This document shows positions 22,975 to 28,492 of a stretch of 64,000 bases of DNA, one piece after another. A program made the position numbers and the translations under genes. The notes under the pieces are model-generated. The model saw only the letters and a list, made by a program, of their open reading frames with translations. It was not told the origin of the DNA and did no database searches. Every line of letters starts with the position of its first letter. Positions within the stretch are counted from its first letter, which is position 1. Origin of the DNA: Variovorax brevis. Its GTDB lineage: Bacteria > Pseudomonadota > Gammaproteobacteria > Burkholderiales > Burkholderiaceae_C. Location: assembly GCF_030317105.1 (NCBI RefSeq), contig NZ_JASZYG010000003.1:186001-250000 (forward strand), written 5' to 3'.

Positions 22975-24495
22975 ATGACTGTGAATTATTCCAAGATCGG
23001 CGTCGTCGGTGCCGGCGCCATGGGACGGGGCATCGCCCAGATTGCTGCACAGGCCGGTAGCGAAGTGCTGCTTGTCGACACCATGGCCGGCGCCGCCCAA
23101 CGCGCGCTCGACGCCGTGGTCGGCACTTGGGCCAAGCTGCAGGAAAAAGGCAAGCTTGATGCCGCGAGTCGCGATGCCTGCGCTGCGCGCCTGAAGGCCG
23201 TCGATTCGACGAAGGATTTCGCGGATTGCGATCTGGTGATCGAAGCCATCGTCGAAAACCTGGAGATCAAGCGCCAGCTTTTCCGCGATCTCGAAGGCAT
23301 CGTCTCGAAGAGCGCCACGTTGGTCACCAACACGTCTTCCCTGTCGGTGACGGCCATTGCCGCGAGGCTGTCGAATCCCGAGCGCTTCGCAGGTTTTCAC
23401 TTCTTCAACCCGGTGCCGCTGATGAAGGTGGTCGAAGTCGTCGCCGGCTTCAAGACGGACCGTGCGCTGTGCGAGCGCCTTGCGGGGTACGCTGCCCAGA
23501 TGGGCCACAGCGCAGTGCAAACGCAGGACACGCCGGGCTTCATCGTGAACCACGCAGGTCGCGGCTACGGCACGGAGGCGCTTCGCATCGTGGGCGAAGG
23601 CGTTGCCGACTTTGCGACCATCGACCGCATCCTCAAGGACCAGGGCGGCTTCCGGCTCGGCCCCTTCGAACTGATGGACCTCACGGCGCTGGACGTGTCC
23701 CATCCGGTGATGGAGTCGATCTACCACCAGTACTACGAAGAGCCGCGCTTCCGTCCGAGCGTCATCACCGCGCAACGCCTTGCGGCCGGTGCCGTGGGTC
23801 GCAAGTCGGGCGAAGGCTTCTATCGTTACGTCGATGGCGCCGCGCAGATCACGCCTGAAGCGCCCACCCCGGTCCTCGAGGCGTTGCCGCCGGTCTGGGT
23901 GTCGCCCCGTGCGGCGCGTCGACCGGACCTGCTCAAGCTCGTCCATACGCTGGGCGCGCAACTTGAAAGCGGCGCCACGCCCTCTTCCGCCGCGCTGATC
24001 GTGGTGGCACCGCTGGGCTTCGACGTGACGACCGTGGCCGCGGTCGAACGGCTCGACGCCACGCGAACGATCGGCATCGACATGCTGGTCGATGACGTCG
24101 CCACCAAGCGCCGCGTGATCGCCACCAATCCCGCCACGCGCCGCGACATCCGCGACGCCGCCCATGCCCTGTTCGCCCGCGACGGCAAGGCCGTGAGCGT
24201 GATTCGCGACAGCGGCGGCTTCGTGACGCAGCGCGTGATCGCCACCATCGTCAACATCGCGGCGGACATGTGCCAGCAGCGGATCTGCTCGCCTGCCGAC
24301 CTGGAGACCGCGGTGCGGCTCGGCCTGGGCTATCCGCAAGGTCCGCTTGCGATGGGCGACCTTTACGGCCCGACCAACATGCTCGAAGTGCTGTTCAATC
24401 TGCAGACGGTATACGGCGATCCGCGCTATCGCCCCAGCCCGTGGCTGCGGCGCCGTGGCGCGCTGGGCCTGAGCCTCAAGCACGAAGAAGATTGA
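22975..24495 (+). CDS. 3-hydroxyacyl-CoA dehydrogenase (PaaH-type)
   Basis: 506-residue NAD-dependent enzyme that oxidises 3-hydroxyacyl-CoA to 3-ketoacyl-CoA. The Rossmann motif GVVGAGAMGRGIAQ lies at residues 9-22. NTSSLSVTAI and the catalytic-His segment FAGFHFFNPVPLMKVVEVV-type are present, and two 3HCDH C-terminal domains follow (around 185-280 and 400-490). The double C-terminal domain and length resemble PaaH of phenylacetate catabolism rather than the 290-residue Hbd form. First gene of a five-gene plus-strand operon; a candidate operator lies 33 bp upstream. Confidence 0.92.
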   Translation: MTVNYSKIGVVGAGAMGRGIAQIAAQAGSEVLLVDTMAGAAQRALDAVVGTWAKLQEKGKLDAASRDACAARLKAVDSTKDFADCDLVIEAIVENLEIKRQLFRDLEGIVSKSATLVTNTSSLSVTAIAARLSNPERFAGFHFFNPVPLMKVVEVVAGFKTDRALCERLAGYAAQMGHSAVQTQDTPGFIVNHAGRGYGTEALRIVGEGVADFATIDRILKDQGGFRLGPFELMDLTALDVSHPVMESIYHQYYEEPRFRPSVITAQRLAAGAVGRKSGEGFYRYVDGAAQITPEAPTPVLEALPPVWVSPRAARRPDLLKLVHTLGAQLESGATPSSAALIVVAPLGFDVTTVAAVERLDATRTIGIDMLVDDVATKRRVIATNPATRRDIRDAAHALFARDGKAVSVIRDSGGFVTQRVIATIVNIAADMCQQRICSPADLETAVRLGLGYPQGPLAMGDLYGPTNMLEVLFNLQTVYGDPRYRPSPWLRRRGALGLSLKHEED

Positions 24496-24518
24496 CCTCC
24501 TCCTGAAGGCGCTACGCA

Positions 24519-25298
24519 ATGACCGCACAACTCAAGAGCACGACCGAAGGCAGCACGATGGTGCTGACGCTGTCCAATCCCTCGCAGCGCAACGCGCTGG
24601 GGCCGGACATGTACGCGGCAGGCATCGAAACGCTCAACGGGGCCGAGAACAGCCACGAGATCCGCAGCGTGATCATCACCGGCGAAGGCCCGTGGTTCAG
24701 CGCTGGCGGTTCATTGCAGCGCCTGCAGGCCAATCGCGAACTCGAGCCGGCGGCGCAGGCGCAAAGCATCGAGGCGCTGCACAACTGGATCGAGGCGATC
24801 CGGGCCTATCCCAAGCCGATCATTGCGGCGGTCGAAGGCGCGGCGGCGGGTGCGGGCTTTTCGCTGGCGCTGGCATGCGACTTCATCGTTGCGGCACGCG
24901 ACGCCATCTTTGCAGCGTCGTACAGCAACATCGCGCTGTCGCCCGACGGCGGACTCAGTTGGCAACTGGCGCAGGCACTGCCCCGGCAAGTCGCCAGTGA
25001 ATGGATGATGCTGGGCGAGCGCATCGGCGCCGAGCGTCTTCATGCCCTCGGCCTCGTGAACCAGCTTGCCGACAACGGGCAGGCCTTGTCCACCGCGCTG
25101 GCCTTGGCGGAAAAGCTCAACGCGCGGGCACCGAACGCGCTGGCCAGCGCCAAGGAGTTGCTCAGTGACGGCGCCAACGCAACCCTTTCAGCGCATCTCG
25201 ACACGGAGCGCGATCACTTCGTGCGCAACCTTCATCACCCCAATGCCGGCATCGGCATCGCGGCCTTTCTGGCCAAGGAGCAGCCGCGCTACGCATGA
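24519..25298 (+). CDS. crotonase-fold protein, probably enoyl-CoA isomerase (PaaG/Eci-like)
   Basis: 259 residues with the crotonase fold: NPSQRNALG, oxyanion-hole segments FSAGGSL and AVEGAAAGAGFSLALACD. Alignment by eye to mitochondrial enoyl-CoA hydratase puts Ser115 and Tyr135 where the hydratase has its two catalytic glutamates. An acid is retained at Asp143 in SPDGG, the position used by delta3-delta2 isomerases and PaaG. An isomerase is therefore more likely than a hydratase. It lies 23 bp after the 3-hydroxyacyl-CoA dehydrogenase, the same pairing as paaG/paaH. Confidence 0.85.
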   Translation: MTAQLKSTTEGSTMVLTLSNPSQRNALGPDMYAAGIETLNGAENSHEIRSVIITGEGPWFSAGGSLQRLQANRELEPAAQAQSIEALHNWIEAIRAYPKPIIAAVEGAAAGAGFSLALACDFIVAARDAIFAASYSNIALSPDGGLSWQLAQALPRQVASEWMMLGERIGAERLHALGLVNQLADNGQALSTALALAEKLNARAPNALASAKELLSDGANATLSAHLDTERDHFVRNLHHPNAGIGIAAFLAKEQPRYA

Positions 25299-27176: not shown

Positions 27177-27220
27177 GGCAGCGGCGCCCCGGAACACGCA
27201 CCCATTTCACAGGAGACATC

Positions 27221-28492
27221 ATGGATTTCGAATACTCGGCCAAAACGAAAGAGCTGCAGAAGCGCGTCACTGCCTTCATGGACGACTACATCTATCCGGC
27301 CGAGGCCGAATATGCAGCCGAGCTCACTGCCAACACGGCCGCAGGCAAGCGCTGGACCGCGCTGCAAACCGTCGAGAAGCTCAAGCAGAAGGCACGTGCG
27401 CAGGGCCTGTGGAACCTGTTCCTGCCAGTCGACAGCGCGGCGGCTTCGGGCTACGAAGGTGCGGGCCTCACGAACCAGGAATATGCGCCGCTGGCGGAAA
27501 TCATGGGCCGCGTGCCATGGGCCAGCGAAGCGTTCAACTGCTCGGCGCCGGACACCGGCAACATGGAAACCATTGCCCGCTATGGCTCCGAAGCCATCAA
27601 GGCGCGCTGGCTCAAGCCGCTGCTCGAAGGCGAGATCCGCTCGGCCTTCGCGATGACCGAGCCGGCCGTGGCATCGAGCGACGCGACCAACATCGCGACC
27701 CGCATCGAACGCCAGGGCAACGAATACGTCATCAACGGCCACAAGTGGTGGATCTCGGGTGCGGCCGATCCGCGTTGCGCCGTGTTCATCACCATGGGCA
27801 AAACCGATCCGGAAGCGGCCAAGCATTCGCAGCAAAGCATGATCATCGTGCCGGCCGACGCCAAGGGCATCCGCATCGTGCGTCCGCTGACGGTGATGGG
27901 CTATGACGATGCGCCGCATGGCCACGTCGAGATGTACTTCGAGAACGTGCGCGTGCCTGTCGACAACATCCTGCTGGGTGAAGGCCGCGGCTTCGAGATC
28001 GCCCAGGGCCGCCTTGGCCCGGGACGCATTCACCACTGCATGCGCCTCATCGGCCTTGCCGAGCGCGCCCTTGAACTCATGTGCAAGCGCGCATCCTCAC
28101 GCGTGGCCTTCGGCAAGACCGTCGCCTCGCAAACCGTGACGCAAGAGCGCATCGCCGAAGCCCGCTGCAAGATCGACATGGCCCGCCTGCTGACGCTCAA
28201 GGCTGCCTGGCTGATGGACGTGGCCGGCAACAAGGTGGCGCGCAACGAGATCGCCATGATCAAGGTCGTGGCGCCGAACATGGCCTGCCAGGTGATCGAC
28301 TGGGCCATGCAGGTGCACGGCGGCGGCGGCATGTCCGACGACTTCCCGCTGGCTGCCGCCTACGCCGGCGCGCGCACGCTGCGCTTTGCGGACGGCCCGG
28401 ACGAAGTGCACCGCAATGCGATCGCGAAATGGGAACTGGGCAAGTACGCCGTTGAAAAGCGCGACATTGAAGCGCCCGTGACGCGCTTCTGA
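27221..28492 (+). CDS. acyl-CoA dehydrogenase family protein (ACAD10/11-type)
   Basis: 423-residue FAD enzyme. The FAD/substrate region has [16 protein letters not shown] and [14 protein letters not shown], the helical core holds [17 protein letters not shown], and the C-terminus carries [13 protein letters not shown] and the [10 protein letters not shown] motif characteristic of the ACAD10/11 branch. The start at 27221 has a strong AGGAGA Shine-Dalgarno. With the kinase upstream it would complete removal of a 4-phosphate from 4-phosphoacyl-CoA, as LvaC does; ordinary beta-oxidation dehydrogenation is the alternative. Last gene of the operon, with its own terminator. Confidence 0.92.

Follow-up and report, generated by a model that had tools for sequence, protein, structure and literature searches.

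What does a five-gene locus of Variovorax brevis do that joins a kinase and a flavoenzyme resembling the mammalian ACAD10/11 proteins to a 3-hydroxyacyl-CoA dehydrogenase (HAD), a crotonase-fold gene (ECH) and a Crp/Fnr-family regulator? The locus lies at 22975-28492 of a 64-kb stretch of DNA (the window; all positions are window coordinates). The contig, C23, belongs to an 8.59-Mb assembly with a listed completeness of 99.82% and contamination of 4.48%. The closest named relatives of the window are found in Variovorax (kinase 91% identical). A sequence-only reading had proposed a 4-hydroxyacyl-CoA catabolic operon of five co-directional genes, and all five open reading frames (ORFs) were indeed found on the + strand over that span, with NCBIfam and Pfam backing the family label given to each. 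Our analysis indicates that the core of the operon is very probably a split bacterial ACAD10/11, that is, a 4-hydroxyacyl-CoA kinase with a phosphate-eliminating acyl-CoA dehydrogenase (ACAD); we are less sure of the complete sequence of reactions. Neither the core chemistry nor the type of enzyme pair is new. What differs here is a regulator gene in the slot that a phosphatase gene occupies in some related bacteria.

The kinase gene (26088..27176, + strand) encodes a 362-aa protein with the aminoglycoside phosphotransferase (APH) fold, of the LvaA/ACAD11 kinase-domain type, and is predicted to be a 4-hydroxyacyl-CoA kinase. The ACAD gene (27221..28492, + strand) encodes a 423-aa flavoenzyme of the ACAD10/11 (LvaC) type, predicted to eliminate phosphate from 4-phosphoacyl-CoA. 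The kinase shared 43.5% identity with mouse ACAD11 (338 aligned residues) and 68.2% with PDB 3dxp (355 residues), and among solved structures it scored 562 bits with 3dxp and 282 bits with ACAD11 8v3v. The ACAD was 54.2% identical to ACAD11 over 397 aligned residues; its top structure was ACAD11 8v3u (460 bits), the ACAD11 chains and 4hr3 together spanned 447-460 bits, and the best solved chain outside this group reached only 144 bits. We compared the ACAD11 residues that were mutated or named in PMC12440821, taking the chain numbering as one below the mouse numbering of that paper, as deduced from motif positions. Catalytic-loop residues D223 and N228 and the CoA-side R176 of the kinase align with identical residues D220, N225 and R176 of ACAD11. 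Likewise, R264, R269, H272 and R275 of the ACAD align with identical R626, R631, H634 and R637, and D391, the catalytic Asp replacing the usual ACAD Glu, aligns with D753. The CoA-side R86 of ACAD11, which neighbours a conserved Glu, could not be placed by its published number, since that position of the aligned chain is not an Arg; R84-E85 of the window kinase align with an Arg-Glu pair of that chain. The 11-residue kinase motif and the 10-residue ACAD motif singled out earlier are both present in the translations, and the assignment of the pair to the ACAD10/11-LvaA/LvaC kind holds, with the kinase loop, the HCMR motif together with the Arg that precedes its His by eight residues (R264, H272, R275) and the catalytic Asp all intact. 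Among matches from related loci, HGD[YF][KR]xDN was present in 128 of 131 kinases, R-x7-HCMR in 113 of 116 ACADs and DGPxEVH in 111 of 116. The exceptions to R-x7-HCMR were L033 and L057, whose sequences run off the end of their contigs, and L170, a different ACAD (31% identical); the same three loci plus L175 and L177 were the exceptions to DGPxEVH.

Published work on relatives supplies the chemistry. According to PMC11342911, ACAD10 converts 4-hydroxyhexanoyl-CoA by way of a 4-phospho form to hexenoyl-CoA and, in lesser amount, 3-hydroxyhexanoyl-CoA, and Burkholderia pseudomallei orthologues of both halves substitute for the ACAD10 domains in vitro. Given this substitution, the window pair is best read as carrying out 4-hydroxyacyl-CoA chemistry, which is largely known. 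In mammals the ACAD10/11 enzymes make 4-hydroxy fatty acids burnable. In the proposed pathway the kinase would phosphorylate the 4-hydroxyl group of a 4-hydroxyacyl-CoA and the ACAD, using flavin adenine dinucleotide (FAD) and with no net oxidation, would eliminate the phosphate to give a trans-2-enoyl-CoA, both steps having been shown in print for relatives. For the hydration that follows, either the ACAD would contribute in part, an activity reported for LvaC and ACAD10, or a hydratase encoded elsewhere would act; the HAD of the operon would then oxidise the resulting 3-hydroxyacyl-CoA. Its residues and family suggest that the crotonase would more likely be an isomerase-like or ring-hydrolase-like accessory than a hydratase. 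The Crp/Fnr protein, to judge by its position, most likely controls the operon.

Compared with mammalian ACAD10 and ACAD11, the window encodes the same kind of kinase and ACAD, with identical partners for the named ACAD11 residues, but as split genes and not as one fused chain. A haloacid-dehalogenase-like domain, which in ACAD10 holds back the kinase and has negligible phosphatase activity (PMC11342911), has no counterpart in the window operon. The lva operon of Pseudomonas putida likewise encodes the two 4-hydroxyacyl-CoA enzymes, kinase and ACAD, as separate proteins (described in PMC12440821, PMC11342911 and PMC6692424). Unlike it, the window operon lacks LvaD reductase, LvaE ligase and an LvaB gene in the kinase-ACAD gap, has a Crp/Fnr gene in place of the sigma54-dependent LvaR, and has the HAD and crotonase genes in addition. 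The B. pseudomallei LvaA (Q63VL0) and LvaC orthologues, both active in vitro, were chosen in PMC11342911 because they resemble ACAD10 more than their P. putida counterparts do. An LvaA-like kinase and an LvaC-like ACAD are likewise shared with the levulinate cluster of P. citronellolis (PMC6692424).

The first gene of the locus (22975..24495, + strand) encodes a 506-aa, PaaH-like HAD of the PRK08268 type, and the second (24519..25298, + strand) a 259-aa protein with the crotonase fold, placed in the 'oxepin-CoA hydrolase, alternative type' family (NF046063, with alignments to 4jfc, 4fzw and 9qwv). The Crp/Fnr-family regulator (Pfam cNMP_binding and HTH_Crp_2) follows at 25361..26080, + strand, in a longest ORF that begins at 25295. 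Leaving aside the window itself and a single match that starts at residue 7, homologues from the order sample described below begin to align at residue 9-24, which makes the ATG at 25361 the more likely start. With that start the intergenic gaps are, in gene order, 23, 62, 7 and 44 bp. Downstream of the ACAD gene a terminator-like stem (28536..28567, + strand; 12 pairs, 7 of them GC, with a T-rich tail) likely marks the operon end; a stem scan gave 4 such sites against a shuffle mean of 4.8, and what sets this one apart is how long it is and where it lies, whereas the number of sites is unremarkable. A sequence scan found the palindrome TCTGAC-N6-GTCAGA (22925..22942) 5' of the first gene, a weak candidate operator, and its TGAC-N4to8-GTCA form was present in only 10 of the 65 upstream regions examined. 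A simple promoter scan gave no sigma-70-like promoter. The short gaps, the terminator-like stem and the conserved gene order together support the reading of the genes at 22975-28492 as one probable operon, as had been proposed. In many Acidovorax-type loci among L045-L080, CATAAT was seen by eye about 6 bases before the HAD start codon, and the transcript there may be leaderless.

To assess conservation we used a Comamonadaceae set (n = 83), which combines the best 80 of at least 586 relatives from named genomes with three loci of family f1 (Comamonadaceae) from an order sample of 250 genomes, in which only the best few (10) candidates per genome were scored. By title the set is mostly Comamonadaceae, with some metagenome-assembled genomes without genus and one locus (L070) titled Pantoea. 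All five genes were found in 67 of the 83 loci, including L059 of Acidovorax sp. GW101-3H11. The remainder comprised six loci without HAD, five with Crp-kinase-ACAD only, three without a detected ACAD (L033 and L057 end at a contig edge there, L081 does not), one without ECH and one (L058) with the kinase alone. Outside f1 we read loci from 37 of the 61 kinase-bearing genomes, drawn mostly from the top of the identity list and not at random. Their layouts were HAD-ECH-phosphatase-kinase-ACAD (2), HAD-ECH-kinase-ACAD (2), HAD-ECH-kinase (1), HAD-kinase-ACAD (2), ECH-phosphatase-kinase-ACAD (1), phosphatase-kinase-ACAD (9), kinase-ACAD (9) and bare kinase (11). HAD-ECH-kinase groupings recur in families f31 and f9, and ECH-kinase in f7 and, by coordinates, f3. 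Across the order sample the kinase was present in 69 of 250 genomes at E ≤ 1e-60, the ACAD in 69 at E ≤ 1e-130 and the crotonase in 14 at E ≤ 1e-60. Thirteen of the 16 crotonase places directly preceded a co-directional kinase gene, a grouping beyond chance; the three that did not adjoin it (G159:C1:586331, G000:C20:40295 and G127:C1:4683) were left out. When the search was widened to the class, 44 of 370 genomes had a kinase match at E ≤ 1e-20. Among 20 regions read, 18 had kinases 32-38% identical to the window's, nine of these with an ACAD (39-56% identical) beside and upstream of the kinase, and none of the 20 showed the P. putida gene order by markers that did not include LvaB. The pathway known from P. 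putida and mammals is thereby placed as a conserved operon module in Comamonadaceae; our searches of the open-access literature found no report of a Crp-kinase-ACAD operon, and PMC13186573 proved to have no bearing on it.

Several observations count against a complete 4-hydroxyacyl-CoA operon of this kind. Within the operon there is no counterpart of LvaB, which is required in P. putida (PMC6692424): the kinase-ACAD gap is the 44 bp given above and the other gaps hold no small gene. The five genes include neither ligase nor thiolase, and no thiolase or acyl-CoA ligase was recognised by eye among the ORFs listed for 18000-34000. Orthology to LvaA/LvaC and to the B. pseudomallei proteins is drawn through ACAD11 and related genomes and is in that sense putative. 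At least one of the five genes went undetected in 16 of the 83 set loci (in two or more because of a contig end), five of the 83 hold only Crp-kinase-ACAD, and 11 of the 37 other-family loci show a kinase with no other operon gene beside it. Finally, the sole genetic evidence that we met on the crotonase family ties it to phenylacetate, through a mutant phenotype (PMC9007349).

This last point bears on the statement that the next enzymes for the product are encoded in the same operon, of which the HAD at most can be kept. The HAD scored 725 bits with NCBIfam PRK08268 (cut-off 508), fell below the cut-off of the PaaH equivalog TIGR02279 (445 against 669 bits) and contains 3HCDH_N and two 3HCDH stretches by Pfam. 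The crotonase has Ser115 and Tyr135 at the positions of the two catalytic Glu of hydratase 9qwv, in alignments made also to 4jfc and PaaG 4fzw, and it keeps Asp143 of SPDGG as in PaaG, where this Asp has a role. Of the two Glu, Glu144 is so described in PMC9007349 as well. That source reports, for the crotonase family, a mutant phenotype in phenylacetate or phenylalanine use: H281DRAFT_04594 is important for growth of Paraburkholderia bryophila on phenylacetate and is proposed as an alternative oxepin-CoA hydrolase. Lacking both hydratase Glu and belonging to a family with this phenotype, the window crotonase is not an obvious next enzyme. It passes NF046063 (374 bits, cut-off 300), a model that was presumably built on H281DRAFT_04594. 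The test is a weak one, because all nine of nine related crotonases pass, including one from an unlinked locus of the same genome (363 bits); the model is broad. Ser replaces the hydratase Glu144 in both H281DRAFT_04594 and the window protein, whereas the Met given for the former in PMC9007349 corresponds to Ala133 in the window, whose genome also has a full PaaZ. Two of the three f31 cluster crotonases (L138 and L139) have Ser118 as printed in that paper and Met at 136 against the printed 135, and they are likely to be H281DRAFT_04594 itself, to judge by these residues. A second crotonase of this family was observed at L187 (G000:C20:40295-41047), beside an ACAD and a CoA-transferase III gene. 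Overall, the sequence-only reading was right on the kinase/ACAD pair, too generous on the crotonase and incomplete on the regulator.

The regulator is confined to one family in our sample. Crp was found in 8 of 250 order-sample genomes at E ≤ 1e-40, all of them f1, with no match in the other 242; eight of its ten places adjoin the kinase. It adjoins the kinase in all eight kinase-bearing f1 genomes, and 82 of the 83 set loci have a Crp match on the upstream side of the kinase. A histidine phosphatase gene occupies the position just upstream of the kinase in 12 of the 37 other-family loci, in five families (L138, L139, L143, L151, L152, L153, L154, L155, L156, L157, L158 and L159), and Pfam His_Phos_1 was confirmed on two of these proteins. 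The three f31 genomes, of the same order and by our guess a Burkholderia family, have kinases 67-71% identical to the window's, with the phosphatase in the slot in two and Crp in none. P. citronellolis also has a histidine phosphatase beside its LvaA homologue, suggested in PMC6692424 to remove phosphate; no such phosphatase is present in the window operon, nor in its genome at E ≤ 1e-15. The L138 phosphatase had no match at this threshold in any of the eight f1 genomes tested. The same held for 8 of 11 others, and Comamonadaceae are therefore not distinctive in lacking it. The Crp/Fnr gene stands in the slot that the phosphatase occupies in some other families, a state that may have arisen by replacement or by separate insertions. 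In those families the phosphatase is a possible brake on the 4-phosphoacyl-CoA step, and the presence of a Crp/Fnr gene in that slot here gives one lead. The negligible phosphatase activity of the ACAD10 domain (PMC11342911) makes a parallel with the slot phosphatase loose. A Crp/Fnr paralogue 82% identical to that of the operon was observed apart from it at G000:C18:33737-34450 (L189 5729-6544), between Na/H exchanger and methyltransferase genes.

Three other readings, which are not mutually exclusive, have to be weighed against a single 4-hydroxyacyl-CoA operon. The locus might hold two modules, with HAD and crotonase serving phenylacetate or other aromatic CoA compounds (as 3-hydroxyadipyl-CoA dehydrogenase and oxepin-CoA hydrolase) and Crp-kinase-ACAD serving 4-hydroxyacyl-CoA. 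The NF046063 membership, the Ser118 of two of the three f31 crotonases (though the printed Met135 falls at 136) and the five of 83 loci with Crp-kinase-ACAD and neither HAD nor ECH all favour such a division. So does paaA: of 13 genomes whose crotonase is linked to the kinase, 12 had it above its cut-off, compared with 20 of the 56 kinase-bearing genomes that lack such a linked crotonase (Fisher p = 0.0003, only a guide, as the genomes are related and the counts not independent of descent). However, a bifunctional PaaZ of full length (997 bits over model positions 1-664) is encoded in the window genome at a distance of 9 kb from paaA, one of three full-length PaaZ among the 13 genomes, so that the crotonase is not needed for the oxepin-CoA step there. 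In addition, the HAD is under the PaaH cut-off, the PaaH-like phenotype of P. bryophila maps to another gene (PMC9007349), and the breadth of NF046063, which takes in the unlinked crotonase, weakens the family argument. We regard two modules as somewhat unlikely. The crotonase of a family with a published phenylacetate phenotype inside a 4-hydroxyacyl-CoA operon provides a second lead. That the Crp/Fnr gene is a passenger controlling other targets appears less probable still. The distant paralogue and the poorly conserved upstream palindrome would fit a passenger; the near-constant place of Crp before the kinase in the set, its adjacency in every kinase-bearing f1 genome and the lack of matches in the other 242 genomes speak against one. 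A bolder joint proposal is that in Comamonadaceae the Crp/Fnr gene replaced a phosphatase that restrains phospho-acyl-CoA build-up before the kinase in other Burkholderiales, exchanging dephosphorylation for transcriptional control in parallel to the phosphatase-like domain of ACAD10, and that the HAD-crotonase half links the module to the breakdown of phenylacetate; the operon may then salvage a 4-hydroxyacyl-CoA by-product of aromatic ring cleavage. Taken as a whole, we consider this improbable.

The remaining alternative concerns the substrate. The pair might act on special 4-hydroxyacyl-CoA compounds (branched, terpenoid, or lactone- or ring-derived), with the crotonase shifting their double bonds, and levulinate or 4-hydroxyvalerate would then not be the main substrates. 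The genome holds a second kinase (55% identical) and ACAD (33% identical, also with HCMR and DGPTEVH) on C13 (L176, G000:C13:49847-66830), in a cluster that also contains an AMP ligase, an AraC-type regulator, a thiolase, a MaoC-like protein, a short-chain dehydrogenase/reductase (SDR) and a further ACAD. A kinase-less LvaC-like ACAD (65% identical) lies on C1 (L186, G000:C1:504850-522058) with a CoA-transferase III, crotonases, an HAD and a TctC receptor gene as neighbours. This second pair in a fuller cluster and the kinase-less ACAD suggest substrate specialisation, and the ACAD11 pocket is described in PMC12440821 as fit for much longer chains. On the other side, any particular substrate is conjectural, the conserved residues do not settle chain length, and with 4.48% listed contamination the other contigs could be foreign. 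A special substrate is tenable but doubtful.

Within the Comamonadaceae set the history of the two core genes differs. In a thinned 57-row kinase tree all 29 rows of the set fell on one side of a branch (support 100/98). Seven set loci (L042, L043, L044, L050, L069, L087 and L136) carry an ACAD that grouped with other families in a quick tree. A tree holding the set ACADs together was rejected by the approximately unbiased (AU) test (p = 0.003, 22 rows vs. 25), for which the set was thinned and L179, L183, L161 and L186 were dropped. Two ACAD lineages thus occupy the same slot beside a kinase of one lineage. As the kinase rows stay together and the ACADs split, the kinase seems to have remained where it was and the ACAD gene next to it to have undergone displacement in situ.

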